DNA from: an uncultured Eubacteriales bacterium
Lineage (GTDB): Bacteria > Bacillota > Clostridia > Oscillospirales > Acutalibacteraceae
Reading direction: 5' to 3'
DNA: 43,279 nucleotides
Assembly (NCBI GenBank): GCA_900316495.1
Contig: ONDC01000006.1
Location: forward strand, 10,634 to 53,912
Part shown: in pieces, positions 2,452 through 9,610 of the stretch
Numbering within the stretch: position 1 is the stretch's first letter
How the letters are laid out: each line of letters starts with the position of its first letter
Translations under genes and position numbers: made by a program
The notes under the pieces: generated by a model
What the model saw: the letters and a program-made list of their open reading frames with translations, nothing else
What the model was told of the DNA's origin: nothing
The model's database searches: none

Positions 2452-4080
2452 TTACTGCGCCGCCTCGACGGGAACCGGCTTGTTCTTCTTGAACACAATA
2501 TGCCCTATCGCGCCGAACAGCTCGCCGAATTCCTTCATCCGGCAGAAGCAGAGGGCGATCAGCGCATTGGGAAGAATCAGGCACACGCCCAGCTTCGCGA
2601 GAATTTCCAGCCAGCCGGTCAGCCGCAGGGTATCGTTCACCAGCTTCATGTCGGCAACATGCGTCAGGGCGATCATCGCGCCTGAGAAGCCGAGGTAGAC
2701 GAATTCCTTCGCCCAGAATTCGCCCATGGAGCGCTTGAGTCCGTGGCGGAAGAGCACCAGCGGCTCCACCCAGAGCGAGGTGACAGCCATGCTGAAAATG
2801 GTTCCGAAGAAGATACCGGCGATCCCCATGCTCTGAATGGCGGCGATGGAAACCACCACATTGATGACCGCCTCGACAATCGGCTTGTAGCGGTCGTACC
2901 AGAGCAGACCCATGGCCTCCTTGAAGGTGAGCGGCACCTTGCGAATGCCGATAACGTAGAAGTTCAGACCGATCATCAGGATGGTCGGGAAGGTAAAGCC
3001 GTAGGACTGCACGTCCTCCACCCCCATAAGGGTGAGAATCTGCATCAGCACGGGATTGGCAAGCTCGATGAACGCCACCGTGCAGAAGGTGTACATCCAG
3101 AAGCTGAGAAAATGCAGGTATTTAAAGGTCTTGTAAACCGTGTCCTTCGATTCGAGCGCCGACATATTGCCCACGCTGGAGAGCATGGCGTTGAAGAACT
3201 GGCTGATGAAGGCGGTCATCAGATTGACGATCATCTTGAAATTGCCGTAGAATCCGCAATAGATAATGCCGATGAATTTGGAGATCAGCAGATTGTCGGT
3301 GGAGCCAAGCACCACCGCGCCGACGCGGTGATTGAACATGGCGAACACATTCTTGTAGATCGCCTTTTTTTCGTCCTTAGTGAGCAGAATCTTCTCCTTC
3401 GTATTAAGGAAGGGGTACAGGTGTTCCGCCTTGCGGGTGAGCAGGAAGTTTTTGAGCACCACCAGCACCGTCTGCACGATGAGGTAATAAAAGAATTTGT
3501 TCCTGCTGCCGCTGACAAGAATGAGAATTTGTAGCACGCATTGGACGATGGAAAAGATCATGCTGAAAAGATGGACAATGTAAAGCCTCTGATCAGCGTT
3601 GAGAATGGACTGCTTGTAGACAAACAGATAGGACGACGCGGAGCTGACGAGATAAAGGAAAAAGATGAACCGCGCGTGCGGCACGTCGTCCATATTTTCA
3701 ATGAAGAAGGACAGGAACGGCATCAGGAGCAGTCCCGACCCGAAGACCATCCCGGCGATCAGCCGGTACGCCTTCTTGTAAAACTGCGTCAGGGCGATCA
3801 GCTTGCGCTCGTTTTTTTCGGCGAGCGGCTGGTACATGCTGTAGACCAGCACCAGACCGATGCCAAGCTCGGCAAGCGACAGGAAATCCAGAATATTGGA
3901 GAAGAGGTTCTTCGCCCCCAGATATTCCTTGATCATGTATTTGATGAACACCAGCTGAACGACAGCGGCGGTCAGCGCGGCAATCGCCTGCGAAAGCACA
4001 CCGACCACGGTGTTTTTAAAGAGTTTTTCGCCTCTCAAAAGATGATTCCCCTTTTCAGCGTGTGGATTAGGCGAGCGCAT
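2452..4080 (-). CDS. Polysaccharide-type flippase (MOP superfamily, Wzx-like)
   Basis: This polytopic membrane protein is about 542 aa long with some 12-14 hydrophobic segments. It has the usual layout of oligosaccharide or polysaccharide flippases of the MATE/MOP superfamily, which move lipid-linked glycans across the cytoplasmic membrane. I place the start at the ATG at 4080, which overlaps the stop of the radical SAM gene as TGATG, with AAGGA about 12 nt upstream. An in-frame TTG at 4104 is the alternative. It is the last gene of the operon with the glycosyltransferase, the two VYGPP lipoproteins and the SPASM enzyme. The context suggests it exports the operon product or a glycan attached to it. 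The substrate is unknown. A short basic tail ends the protein. Confidence 0.85.
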   Translation of the reverse strand: MRSPNPHAEKGNHLLRGEKLFKNTVVGVLSQAIAALTAAVVQLVFIKYMIKEYLGAKNLFSNILDFLSLAELGIGLVLVYSMYQPLAEKNERKLIALTQFYKKAYRLIAGMVFGSGLLLMPFLSFFIENMDDVPHARFIFFLYLVSSASSYLFVYKQSILNADQRLYIVHLFSMIFSIVQCVLQILILVSGSRNKFFYYLIVQTVLVVLKNFLLTRKAEHLYPFLNTKEKILLTKDEKKAIYKNVFAMFNHRVGAVVLGSTDNLLISKFIGIIYCGFYGNFKMIVNLMTAFISQFFNAMLSSVGNMSALESKDTVYKTFKYLHFLSFWMYTFCTVAFIELANPVLMQILTLMGVEDVQSYGFTFPTILMIGLNFYVIGIRKVPLTFKEAMGLLWYDRYKPIVEAVINVVVSIAAIQSMGIAGIFFGTIFSMAVTSLWVEPLVLFRHGLKRSMGEFWAKEFVYLGFSGAMIALTHVADMKLVNDTLRLTGWLEILAKLGVCLILPNALIALCFCRMKEFGELFGAIGHIVFKKNKPVPVEAAQ

Positions 4081-5156
4081 CAGAACAAAATATCCTTGAA
4101 GCAAACCCGCTGTTTGTTGCGGTCATAATCCCAACTGTGGTGCGCCCCGCCGTGACAGAATTCGCAGCAGTCGCACGCGCGGCACTTTTCGTTCAGATCG
4201 CTGAGGTCGCTGCGGAAGATTTTGAATTTCTTCTCCCACACGTCCTTCAGGCTGTCGGAGAGGATATTGCCCTGCGTAAGCTCCGGGCGGCGTTCGATGT
4301 CCAGACAGGCTAAGATGTCCCCGTTGGCGGCAATGCTCGCGGTGTAGATGCCCGCATTGCACAGGAAGTACCATTGGCGCACCTGACGCTCGTATTCCGT
4401 CCCTAAGAAGTGGCTGCACCCGTAGGTCAGCGGATAGCCCTCCAGGCGCTTCTCCCGGATGAAGTCGAACATAGCGCGGTATTCGTCGTCCGTGAGCATG
4501 AGATCGGGCGTATCCAACGCCCTGCCGATGGGCTCGATGTTGATGACGCGCCACGAATCGATGTCCATGTCACGGAAAATGTCAAACAGCGCCGACAGCT
4601 CGCCGAAATTGCGGTGATTCACCACAGTTGTCACCTGAACCGCCTGAAAGCCGCCCTGACGGATCAAAGCCTGAATGCCCCGCATCGCGCCGGCATACGC
4701 GCCCTTCATCCCCCGCAGCGCGTCGTGCGTCGCCTCCAGTCCGTCGATGCTGACGGAGATGGTTTTCATGCCGCATTCGCGCAGCCTGCGGGCGACGCCA
4801 TCGTCGATCAGCGTGGCGTTGCTGGTCATGCCCCAGCGGAAGCCGAGGGAATGGGCATAGCCCATGATGTCAAAGAAATCCCTCCGCAGCAGCGGTTCGC
4901 CGCCAGTGATGTCCAGCTCGAGCTGTTCCGCGCCGAAATCGCGCTTGACGTCGTCGAGGATTTGCCTGTACTGTTCCAGCGACAGCTCCGGCACGCGGTC
5001 GTGTTCACCGCAGCGGCTGCCGCAGTGAAGGCAGCGCTCATTGCAGCGGAGCGTCAGCTCCAAGAATAGATTTCTGAGCGGCGGCGCACCGATTATGCTT
5101 CTGCGATATTCAGCGAGCCGCCGCATGTGCTGAATTTTAACGTCGGTCGGATTCAT
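4080..5156 (-). CDS. Radical SAM/SPASM enzyme, rSAM/lipoprotein-system type
   Basis: This is a 358-aa radical SAM enzyme. The CxxxCxxC cluster site is Cys38, 42 and 45 (CNERCLHC), followed by GGEP at 85-88. The C-terminal SPASM domain supplies auxiliary-cluster cysteines at 266, 284, 325, 328, 330, 331, 334 and 352. SPASM enzymes often modify ribosomal peptides. The wording LHCGSRC, GFRWG, RNFGELS, PIGRA and YGC-FLG resembles, from memory, the TIGR04133 family that accompanies small lipoproteins in Bacteroidetes. The ATG at 5156 lies 2 nt after the stop of the upstream lipoprotein gene, with AGGGTG as Shine-Dalgarno inside that gene, so translation is probably coupled. The most likely substrates are the two lipoproteins encoded just before it. 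The reaction is unknown. Confidence 0.88.
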   Translation of the reverse strand: MNPTDVKIQHMRRLAEYRRSIIGAPPLRNLFLELTLRCNERCLHCGSRCGEHDRVPELSLEQYRQILDDVKRDFGAEQLELDITGGEPLLRRDFFDIMGYAHSLGFRWGMTSNATLIDDGVARRLRECGMKTISVSIDGLEATHDALRGMKGAYAGAMRGIQALIRQGGFQAVQVTTVVNHRNFGELSALFDIFRDMDIDSWRVINIEPIGRALDTPDLMLTDDEYRAMFDFIREKRLEGYPLTYGCSHFLGTEYERQVRQWYFLCNAGIYTASIAANGDILACLDIERRPELTQGNILSDSLKDVWEKKFKIFRSDLSDLNEKCRACDCCEFCHGGAHHSWDYDRNKQRVCFKDILF

Positions 5157-5158
5157 CG

Positions 5159-5395
5159 TCAGTCACCCTGCGAAACGGACGCCTGCTCCCCCTCCGCGGA
5201 GGAGGAGGCAAAGAATTCCTCTCCGTCGACAGCGCCGGTCTCTACGTCCTCGTCGCTGAAAACGGGCGGCGGACCGTAAACGCAGACATTGGCGTTATTC
5301 TCTGATTCAAAATCCTCGTCCTTGCCGCAGGAAGCAAGCGCGCCTGTCAGCGCGATCGAAGCCATAGCGGCTGCCAGAATTCTGCTTTTTTTCAT
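5159..5395 (-). CDS. Small VYGPP-motif lipoprotein B, putative radical SAM substrate
   Basis: This 78-aa predicted lipoprotein begins with a basic MKKSR and a hydrophobic stretch that ends in the lipobox LASC (Cys23). The mature part is short, acidic and probably disordered. It has one VYGPP motif at residues 39-43, set in NVCVYGPPP, and a Glu/Ser-rich tail. The first 18 residues are identical to those of the neighbouring lipoprotein. The start is the ATG at 5395, with AGGAGGT 7-8 nt upstream. An open frame continues to 5479 but has no Shine-Dalgarno. The stop is 2 nt from the radical SAM start. I infer it is a precursor or substrate of that enzyme. It has an extra Cys38 beside the motif that its paralogue lacks. 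Confidence 0.8.
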   Translation of the reverse strand: MKKSRILAAAMASIALTGALASCGKDEDFESENNANVCVYGPPPVFSDEDVETGAVDGEEFFASSSAEGEQASVSQGD

Positions 5396-5450
5396 TGATG
5401 ATGACCTCCTTAAGTCTATTGAAGCATATCTGTCATGAAGCGCAACGGAC

Positions 5451-5681
5451 TTAATCCGTCGGCGGCGGACCGTAAACATCCGGCTCGATATTCATGACGG
5501 GATCGTAATCCTCTGTTGGCTCCGCCTCCGATTCAGGTTCCTCCACCGGTTCCTCATAGGAACGCGGCGGACCGTAAACATCCGGCTCGTTGTTTTCCTC
5601 CGGGCTGAACGCGCACGAACTGAGCGTTCCCGTCAGCGCGATCGAAGCCATGGCGGCAGCCAGAATCCTGCTTTTTTTCAT
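5451..5681 (-). CDS. Small VYGPP-motif lipoprotein A, putative radical SAM substrate
   Basis: This 76-aa predicted lipoprotein has the same MKKSR start and signal peptide as its paralogue 55 bp downstream, and the lipobox LSSC (Cys23). The mature peptide carries two near-identical cores: EPDVYGPPR at 32-40, and EPDVYGPPP at 66-74 just before the C-terminus. A Glu/Pro-rich linker separates them. Duplicated cores are typical of modified peptide precursors. The ATG at 5681 has AAGGGG upstream. The gene follows the glycosyltransferase in the same direction after a 92-bp gap that contains a hairpin. The function is inferred from linkage to the radical SAM gene. It could instead be an ordinary surface lipoprotein modified in place. 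Confidence 0.8.
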   Translation of the reverse strand: MKKSRILAAAMASIALTGTLSSCAFSPEENNEPDVYGPPRSYEEPVEEPESEAEPTEDYDPVMNIEPDVYGPPPTD

Positions 5682-5773
5682 AAGCCTACCCCTTTCATAA
5701 TTGATTGCGGAACAGTATCCGGGGAACGCCCGCGCCCTTCATCACGGCTCATTCCCCAGCCTCAGGACAACTA

Positions 5774-6727
5774 TCAGCCCTGTTCGGTGACAAAGCGGAG
5801 AATCTCCGCGGCGGAATCGTCCCATGTGCCGGTGTCCCGGAGCATGGACACGGGGGATTTCCTGGCGGCGACCTCAGGGAGAATGCGGTCGATTTCCTCG
5901 GGGGAGTCGATGAAGGTGACCGCGCCCTCGGAGCAGCCGATGCCGGCGAAATTGACAAAGGTGCGGTAGCCGATGACCGGCACGCCGCAGGCAAGCGCCT
6001 CCATGACGGAAAGCGGAATACTGATGACGTTCTCAGTGCTGCGGGTCGGGAAGAGATACGCGTCGGACATGCGGAAAATTTCCTCGACGTTCCGGAGATA
6101 ACCGGACATAATGGTAACGCCGTCCTCCTCGAGCGAACTGACAAGCGCCTCGTCCTCATACATACCGCTGGAAATGATCAGACGTTGGGCGGATCGGACG
6201 TGCAGAAAATCCTCCAGTCCCCTTCCGGCGGAGCAATGTCCCACATGCAGCAGCAGCGGCTTTTCGGGGTCAAAGCCGTATTTTTCCTTCAGCTCCCTGG
6301 AACCGGCTTCGTCGCAGGGGACGAACTTCTCCGTGTTGATACCGACCGAGAAGCGCCGGAGCGCCTTGCCCTCGGCGACCTTCAGATCCCTCACATCGTC
6401 GTCAAATATGTAGAGATAGCTGCACCCGAGCGGATTATCGCGGACAAGGGAGATGAATTCATCGGACGGCTTCTGCACCAGCGCCACCCAGACGTCAGGA
6501 CAGAGCGCCGACACAGCCCTGACAAGCTCATAGATGTGCTTGTCGGCCCATGCGAAGATAAAGGTGACGTCCGCCTTCTTGGAATCGAAGATAATCTTCG
6601 GCAGCTGCCGCAGCCCCGAATAGATGACCGTGTGTTCCTTTTCAAAGGCGCGGGAAATGTGAGTGGCAATGTTTCTCATACCCTCGTTGACCTCGCCGTT
6701 TACCGTGCCGATTACATGTATATTCAT
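5774..6727 (-). CDS. Glycosyltransferase, GT-B fold, family 4-like
   Basis: This 317-aa protein has the two-Rossmann-domain layout of GT4-type enzymes, which transfer sugar from a nucleotide donor. The N-terminal domain starts MNIHVIGTVNGEVNEGM, an acceptor-side glycine loop. The linker FSVGINTEKF leads into the donor domain, with LLHVGH, the segment RMSDAYLFPT, and ENVISIPLSVMEALACGVPVIG, which matches the Glu-rich donor-binding site of GT4. It has no membrane segment. It is the first gene of the operon, with GGAGGAA before the ATG at 6727 and a strong promoter at 6805-6832. The context suggests it glycosylates the lipoprotein or makes a glycan moved by the flippase. The donor and acceptor are unknown. 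Confidence 0.85.
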   Translation of the reverse strand: MNIHVIGTVNGEVNEGMRNIATHISRAFEKEHTVIYSGLRQLPKIIFDSKKADVTFIFAWADKHIYELVRAVSALCPDVWVALVQKPSDEFISLVRDNPLGCSYLYIFDDDVRDLKVAEGKALRRFSVGINTEKFVPCDEAGSRELKEKYGFDPEKPLLLHVGHCSAGRGLEDFLHVRSAQRLIISSGMYEDEALVSSLEEDGVTIMSGYLRNVEEIFRMSDAYLFPTRSTENVISIPLSVMEALACGVPVIGYRTFVNFAGIGCSEGAVTFIDSPEEIDRILPEVAARKSPVSMLRDTGTWDDSAAEILRFVTEQG

Positions 6728-6804: not shown

Positions 6805-6832
6805 ATTATACCACACTCAAAAATAATGTCAA
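6805..6832 (-). promoter_or_regulatory. Promoter of the glycosyltransferase/lipoprotein/radical SAM operon
   Basis: On the minus strand there is a perfect -35 TTGACA (6827-6832), a 16-nt spacer, and a perfect -10 TATAAT (6805-6810) preceded by TGG (extended -10). The predicted start is near 6798, about 70 nt before the glycosyltransferase ATG. This sigma-A type promoter suggests substantial expression of the operon. It is divergent from the mgtE promoter. Confidence 0.85.
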
Positions 6833-9474: not shown

Positions 9475-9512
9475 CAGGCAGCAGCCAAAAATCCCTCCCC
9501 CCCACGCACCAA

Positions 9513-9610
9513 AAAAACCCTCCCTGAAAGGGAGGGGGGACCGCTTGCGGTGGGTGAGTCGCCCCCGGCGCAGGGCAGGAATTCCCACGCGCCCGGACAT
9601 ACCCCAACGC
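9513..9610 (+). repeat. 98-bp structured intergenic repeat, copy 2
   Basis: This is the second copy of the element at 11-108, in the same orientation, with one mismatch. It follows the TtcA-like gene and precedes a lipoprotein gene. Both copies lie just upstream of plus-strand genes. The two hairpins are fully conserved, which suggests selection on structure or recent copying. Confidence 0.85.

Follow-up and report, generated by a model that had tools for sequence, protein, structure and literature searches.

The window analysed here, a stretch of 43,279 nucleotides from contig ONDC01000006.1 (assembly GCA_900316495.1, positions 10,634 to 53,912) of an uncultured Eubacteriales bacterium of the gut, encodes on its minus strand two small lipoproteins next to a radical SAM/SPASM enzyme. 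The conserved core of this system is a two-gene cassette, which pairs a SPASM enzyme resembling the family TIGR04133 with an exported carrier that has between one and eight X-Tyr-Gly-Pro-Pro sites. The tyrosine of the YGPP sites is very likely the target of the enzyme, as suggested by the association of the two genes and by their joint decay at one locus (L042). By analogy with characterized relatives, the enzyme is probably of the splicease type and would create alpha-keto-beta-amino residues on exported carriers. The features of the cassette in the window are the following.

5451..5681, minus strand: lipoprotein 1, 76 amino acids, lipobox LSSC, two VYGPP sites, proposed substrate
5565..5576, minus strand: YGPP site 1 of lipoprotein 1
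5463..5474, minus strand: YGPP site 2 of lipoprotein 1
5159..5395, minus strand: lipoprotein 2, 78 amino acids, lipobox LASC, one CVYGPP site, proposed substrate
5267..5278, minus strand: YGPP site of lipoprotein 2
4080..5156, minus strand: radical SAM/SPASM enzyme, 358 amino acids, TIGR04133-like, proposed to be splicease-type and YGPP-modifying
5022..5045, minus strand: radical SAM cluster motif CxxxCxxC, residues 38-45, with the clade signature G46-S47 directly after it
4101..4361, minus strand: SPASM auxiliary-cluster cysteines C266, C284, C325, C328, C334 and C352, invariant in enzyme alignment A1

Both lipoproteins begin with the same signal peptide start, MKKSRILAAAMASIALTG. Alignment A1 comprises 16 of the 42 enzymes described below.

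Enzyme and YGPP carrier as a conserved unit

In 84,980 species genomes, a pattern-based scan retrieved 41 related loci (48-89% identical), which makes 42 with the window. All but three of the 41 titles denote metagenome-assembled genomes (MAGs) or uncultured isolates. [Eubacterium] cellulosolvens LD2006 (L030) is a cultured organism with the system. A ruminant gut site is named in 14 of the titles, and a further 11 are RUG isolates, which we take to be from the rumen. The hosts are Clostridia, one Erysipelotrichaceae and several Actinomycetota. An initial interpretation made from the letters of the window without searches, here the sequence-only reading, had proposed a version of Firmicutes only; this proved too narrow, as MAGs of Eggerthellaceae, Atopobiaceae and Coriobacteriaceae also carry the system. 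The set contains some redundancy (the enzymes of L007 and L061 are identical, and L038 and L040 stem from one MAG), and in eight of the 42 loci the sequence extends no further than 1.0 kb beyond the enzyme on the upstream side or 1.7 kb on the downstream side.

Of the 42 loci, 41 have an open reading frame (ORF) bearing YGPP in the 1 kb upstream of the enzyme, with 161 copies of the tetrapeptide. These counts include L046, with a partial enzyme, and L016, with an in-frame stop, both of which were left out of one enzyme alignment. Five of six reordered tetrapeptides were absent from the same ORFs and the sixth, GPPY, gave two copies, and no YGPP was found in four control stretches (30-37 loci each). 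The adjacency of VYGPP proteins and enzyme, on which the sequence-only reading had staked its pairing, recurs in 40 of the 41 relatives. Searches with A1 at E <= 1e-60 had matches in 2 of 398 genomes of a phylum-level sample, in 6 of 394 at order level, in 13 of 300 at family level and in 17 of the 18 genomes searched in the genus; the samples overlap, and the window's genome is counted each time. YGPP is found nearby in all 17 evaluable YGPP loci of this survey. Two truncated survey loci could not be evaluated: in L119 the contig starts within the enzyme, and in L138 it ends on the side of the partner. These associations tie the enzyme to YGPP carriers.

The sites follow a repeat frame, N-x5-YGPP, then loosely E-[WD]-F. 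Among 138 sites with full context, asparagine stands at -6 relative to the tyrosine in 121 and valine at -1 in 112. Position +2 is proline in 135 sites, with one glutamine, one serine and one glycine, and +3 is proline in 132; glutamate at +4 (56 sites) and phenylalanine at +6 (59 sites) are looser. The carriers themselves are diverse. A regular expression detected a lipobox-like word in 39 of 50 carriers, including a false positive in the DUF805 protein of L033, and eight carry a Tat-like RRxF word, five of these together with a lipobox-like word. Several hydrophobic spans are present in eight carriers, and DUF805 was confirmed in both of those tested (L033 and L035). In L033, L035-L040 and L043, YGPP repeats are located at the C-terminus of such multi-span proteins instead of on lipoproteins.

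Joint decay of enzyme and motif

L042 is the sole locus among the 42 without YGPP upstream of the enzyme. Its enzyme is also the only one of the 42 without CxxxCxxC, as the corresponding stretch is missing in frame, and TGGEP is replaced by AGAEP. Directly downstream of the enzyme, an ORF of 135 amino acids ends in NINQPRSGPPEMAG and carries the repeat frame as N-x5-SGPP, with serine in place of tyrosine. Across 352,321 amino acids of ORFs from the 42 loci, the pattern N.{5}[^Y]GPP occurs once, in L042, and N.{5}YGPP occurs 142 times. No second close homologue of the enzyme was found in the L042 genome, where the next match has an E-value of 7e-33. As read from these sequences, the catalytic cluster and the predicted target tyrosine were lost together.

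Relationship to spliceases

The best model for the window's enzyme is TIGR04133 (rSAM_w_lipo) by a wide margin, at 272.2 bits and below the cut-off of 425. Neither lipoprotein of the window matched TIGR04134 at E up to 1 (cut-off 39.8 bits). Membership in the TIGR04133/TIGR04134 pair was therefore rejected, and the system represents a related group; the sequence-only reading was right about the kinship with this pair and not about belonging to it. Its two short VYGPP lipoproteins with a SPASM radical SAM enzyme are borne out by the two lipoboxes, the three VYGPP sites and Pfam matches above the respective cut-offs (Radical SAM 70.1 bits, SPASM 37.6 bits), with CxxxCxxC and SPASM cysteines present. 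An AlphaFold2 model of the enzyme has a mean predicted local distance difference test (pLDDT) score of 86.8 and is weak near residues 264-269. The nearest solved folds among the matches listed are SkfB, anSME and SuiB, and the best 50 matches of the fold search are general SPASM and radical SAM relatives only.

PlpXY excises tyramine at X-Tyr-Gly, with MYG and LYG as natural sites, and splicease tags have the form PIRP[LG]YGLPI, just two being accepted among FtsZ constructs (PMC10533398; PMC11002830). Tetrazine probes have been applied to PlpXY products (PMC10533398). The sequence-only reading named no reaction; since X-Tyr-Gly is the site of tyramine excision, the motif in the window points to splicease-type chemistry. 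A nif11_3 enzyme (TIGR04103) encoded on a Nostoc plasmid reaches 853 bits, above the cut-off of 725, and the Nif11 precursor beside it ends in GGRGSIALYGLPPELF, with the core ALYGLPPELF. This end strikingly resembles VYGPPExF. The entry IPR026482 of PlpX presumably corresponds to TIGR04103.

A maximum-likelihood tree of 49 enzymes separates 37 clade rows (TIGR04133-like together with nif11_3/GDL/PlpX-like) from 12 others with support of 96/74. The branch had 94/86 before four AhbD-like rows joined, and 83 in a quick tree, which kept the long-branch outgroups L096 and L098 that were left out of the careful trees. TIGR04133-like and PlpX-like branches are separate within the tree (99/97 and 100/98). 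In line with the sequence-only reading, the window's enzyme is placed apart from PqqE and the remaining outgroups; sulfatase maturases are not in the tree, anSME being a near fold. Glycine and serine directly after CxxxCxxC are each found in 97% of 32 TIGR04133-like rows and in five of five PlpX-like rows, and in none and one of 10 outgroup rows, respectively. The GS pair is present in all of the 42 loci but L042, and likewise in 41 of 42 survey loci, the other being L119, which is cut before the motif. None of the four annotated precursors of ribosomally synthesized and post-translationally modified peptides (RiPPs) at outgroup loci (MftA, ACGX and two Htur_1727) contains YG. Separately, AhbD-like radical SAM enzymes occur at E <= 1e-90 in 81 of 199 phylum-sampled genomes, one of them above the TIGR04545 cut-off, and possibly form an unnamed family.

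X-Tyr-Gly sites beside divergent enzymes

Divergent members of the clade are accompanied by other proteins with X-Tyr-Gly. Long enzymes of 518-573 amino acids (L067-L071 and L120) adjoin proteins of 52-210 amino acids with YGCP-type sites, mostly YYGCPNSK, in six of six loci, with four such proteins in L071 and one or two in the others. CxxC-rich proteins of the zinc-ribbon type with CIYGPxP adjoin clade enzymes in 16 of 16 evaluable cases, including a broken copy in the window's own genome. An IMG/VR contig (L075) encodes a 66%-identical enzyme and a zinc-ribbon-like protein with two YGSP sites, for which the best Pfam match is below its cut-off. In three plasmid-borne TIGR04133 pairs from Treponema, Parabacteroides and Phocaeicola, the lipoproteins read SCYGMP, CEYGSP and CEYGTP; these Bacteroidota and Treponema lipoproteins score 207, 139 and 44 bits on TIGR04134, all above the cut-off. 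The plain word YG.P occurs by chance in some neighbouring ORFs, and the evidential weight is in the conserved contexts rather than in this word. IYGPMP is not YG.P, and the common element is X-Tyr-Gly with a proline two or three places past the tyrosine.

Several observations concern the enzymes themselves. The tails of four long enzymes contain a possible JAMM-like HSHP-x7-S-x2-D, detected by eye with a pattern that we assume to be that of JAMM. No Pfam match was obtained at E up to 0.01 in two tested long enzymes, and the best PDB match, an RPN11-like protein, is weak (E 0.19). The broken copy in the window's genome (contig C62, L055 6452-9744) is a second TIGR04133-like enzyme with a disrupted reading frame. 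Its neighbours are a CAP/Ig-like protein and a CIYGPMP-bearing protein of the zinc-ribbon type, and the genus also contains intact relatives of this enzyme. On a Tropicibacter plasmid (L089), a nif11_3-like enzyme shares a gene run with a phosphotransferase and two peptidases, one trypsin-like and one of the M23 type. Carriage of the window's system by plasmids or phages was considered and rejected: the best plasmid match is 35% identical and matches in phage records are below 30%. The IMG/VR scan gave one close relative (L075) and six further matches of 21-28%, and two more scans of viral contigs with different clade members as queries gave no matches.

Operon context and genus-level companions

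In the window, the cassette is part of a five-gene operon, with these further features.

6805..6832, minus strand: sigma-70-type promoter, TTGACA-16-TATAAT, 12/12 consensus, TG precedes the second hexamer
5774..6727, minus strand: GT4-like glycosyltransferase, 317 amino acids, Pfam PF13692, genus-level companion outside the conserved cassette
2452..4080, minus strand: polytopic membrane protein, flippase-like by name, ATG start, in-frame TTG at 4104, genus-level companion

The minus-strand operon, its gene order and its near-perfect promoter, as described in the sequence-only reading, were confirmed at these coordinates. Promoter-like sites number eight in the scanned region compared to 3.3 +/- 1.8 in shuffles, and that of the operon is the sole 12/12 match. 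The stop of lipoprotein 2 and the ATG of the enzyme are separated by 2 nucleotides, and the stop of the enzyme overlaps the ATG of the membrane protein by one base. The glycosyltransferase was correctly recognized as GT4-like (Glyco_trans_1_4, 37.5 bits, cut-off 27). The proposed Wzx-like flippase is a polytopic membrane protein, and here the agreement ends: it scores 17.7 bits on NF041503 (cut-off 300), no Pfam match exceeded its cut-off and the structure model is unusable (pLDDT 37), which leaves its identity as a flippase weak. A GC-rich interspersed repeat of ~100 bp is located at ~11-98 and 9500-9600 of the window and has 27 matches in its own genome, several of them adjoining.

Homologues of the glycosyltransferase and the membrane protein were found in four of the 42 loci and only in the window's genus. 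Among 13 YGPP loci of the window's genus, 10 have the glycosyltransferase (one of these, L124, ends before the membrane protein), and the other three (L125, L128 and L129) have neither gene in flanks of 1.2-1.5 kb. The two genes are genus-level companions outside the core, and the added sugar transfer and export of the sequence-only reading do not belong to the conserved system.

Proposed mechanism and alternatives

We suggest that the TIGR04133-like enzyme would modify YGPP sites in the cytoplasm, ahead of export. Tyramine would be excised at X-Tyr-Gly with a loss of 135.08 Da per site, leaving an alpha-keto-beta-amino residue. The site would probably be recognized through the repeat frame N-x5-YGPP itself, no leader peptide or RiPP recognition element (RRE) partner being evident. 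The modified carrier would then be exported as a Sec lipoprotein, via a Tat-like signal or as a DUF805 membrane protein. The electrophilic ketoamides thus displayed at the surface would react with amines or capture serine or cysteine proteases; this function is tentative, and we judge protease trapping less likely than not. The residue before the tyrosine is valine at most YGPP sites, glutamate in two Bacteroidota lipoproteins and tyrosine in most YGCP peptides. Valine before the ketone would make elastase-like proteases natural targets. According to two papers, both citing Scott 2022, proteases are inhibited by spliceotide products or beta-residues (PMC11117315; PMC10373908). More speculatively, gut bacteria might display surface arrays of ribosomally encoded alpha-ketoamide warheads in which the X of X-Tyr-Gly, as the P1 residue, spells inhibitor specificity; one TIGR04133-like branch without a visible RRE might install them on unrelated proteins, zinc-ribbon proteins included.

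Several observations weigh against this reading. The assignment of tyramine excision, which we still consider somewhat favoured, is based on sequence and analogy. Support for the clade is moderate and was not starred by the tree tool, and the window's enzyme scores slightly higher on the AhbD model (155.5 bits, next best after TIGR04133) than on nif11_3 (135.6 bits, below its cut-off). No splicease is named among the PDB matches listed. PlpX works with PlpY/RRE and no counterpart was seen for the window's enzyme, neither among the window genes nor among Pfam and NCBIfam matches, with no dedicated RRE model run. The motif is not strict in the GDL sub-clade, where 6 of 11 DUF1843 peptides have XYG at the N-terminal site. 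A clear substrate is missing in L089, where one downstream gene of 222 amino acids contains LYGAD, and an MYGTG site in Agathobacter sits in an unannotated ORF. YG does occur in two neighbours of outgroup enzymes that are not precursors, a halocyanin and a hypothetical protein. The zinc-ribbon carriers have no obvious signal peptide, hence surface display cannot be general. The joint decay in L042 is a single event in one MAG. Conversely, the L016 enzyme, with its in-frame stop at residue 289, adjoins three intact YGPP sites, and the broken C62 enzyme adjoins an intact IYGPMP. Both retain CxxxCxxC, and their breaks may be recent or assembly errors.

The persistence of intact motifs beside these two broken enzymes would fit YGPP repeats that are mere structural or binding motifs, with the enzyme acting elsewhere, and proline-rich repeats can serve as spacers. 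However, X-Tyr-Gly words shift among unrelated carriers (lipoprotein, DUF805, zinc ribbon, small peptide), always near this enzyme clade, and L042 lost the tyrosine and the enzyme's CxxxCxxC together, which makes such a role very improbable. The five tightly spaced genes behind one promoter, retained in most YGPP loci of the genus, could instead represent a pathway whose product is a modified lipopeptide, glycosylated and exported, and for which both transferase and flippase are required. This was rejected as the core because these two genes are not conserved: no homologue of either was found in 38 of 42 loci (8 of 42 with short flanks) nor in 3 of the 13 genus YGPP loci. A lipoprotein also reaches the surface without a Wzx-type flippase, and we give the pathway hardly any weight.

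Two alternatives retain the tyrosine as the target and differ in the reaction. The enzyme might join the tyrosine ring to the beta-carbon two residues on (Y-G-P), which would give a three-residue cyclophane as in triceptides and turn the repeats into a string of surface rings. Cyclophane-forming SPASM enzymes typically have aromatic-x-x motifs as their sites, and the residue at +2 lacks a beta-carbon at just one of the 138 sites. Yet cyclophane formation, which seems quite unlikely, leaves the invariant glycine, the proline at +3 and the likeness to the nif11_3 core LYGLPPELF unexplained. Models of cross-linking maturases also all score below nif11_3, with WgkB at 111, StsB at 97, PqqE at 96, PapB at 82 and DynA at 77 bits; what these enzymes link is partly our assumption. 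A different reaction near YGPP, such as side-chain loss, oxidation or epimerization of the tyrosine by a chemistry not yet described, would suit the separation of the TIGR04133-like branch from the PlpX-like branch and its own Cys247, which is present in every one of the 32 TIGR04133-like rows and uncommon elsewhere. The motif nevertheless fits a characterized reaction and parsimony favours a chemistry shared across the clade, hence such a reaction is unlikely.

If tyramine excision is correct, the orphan pair TIGR04133/TIGR04134 and its kin would gain a concrete and cheaply testable reaction. Splicease-type chemistry would no longer be confined to peptides with a leader, but would also act, with no RRE visible, on lipoproteins of the surface and on membrane proteins. 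We also suggest N-x5-VYGPP as a short portable tag to place ketones in proteins. Full-text literature searches for VYGPP/YGPP, TIGR04133, TIGR04134 and related names returned nothing relevant, those for YYGCP/YGCPNS returned unrelated papers only, and the word lipoprotein was absent from papers matching splicease-related words. Scott et al. 2022 (Chem), outside the searched text and by its title concerned with beta-amino acids in ribosomal peptides and proteins, may overlap with the present proposal and anticipate part of it.

Comparison with known systems

MftC and AhbD/NirJ are SPASM enzymes with similar hidden Markov model scores, but they fall outside the XYG clade. MftC acts on a Val-Tyr end, and MftA in L090 ends in CGVY, without YG. 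The GDL/DUF1843 systems (TIGR03913) belong to the same broader clade as the window's enzyme and share XYG at the N-terminal site in part of their peptides, but involve a different carrier family and a site that is often XYM or XYA. The TIGR04133/TIGR04134 systems of Bacteroidota and Treponema consist, as in the window, of a radical SAM/SPASM enzyme adjoining a small lipoprotein. The three TIGR04134 proteins examined carry YGSP, YGTP or YGMP at or just past the lipobox and are X-Tyr-Gly carriers as well. In TIGR04134, one site opens a longer protein, whereas the window's group has YGPP repeats on several carrier types.

The spliceotide system PlpX/PlpY differs from the window in its Nif11/NHLP leader and RRE partner, neither of which is visible here (no dedicated RRE model was run). 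The carriers here are exported lipoproteins or membrane proteins, and the activity in the window is a predicted one. The window's enzyme is 31% identical to the Nostoc nif11_3 enzyme. Both systems combine a SPASM enzyme with an X-Tyr-Gly substrate, represented in the window by three VYGPP sites, and share CxxxCxxC-G-S on sister branches. Multiple splicing events are possible per spliceotide precursor, a further point that the window would share.

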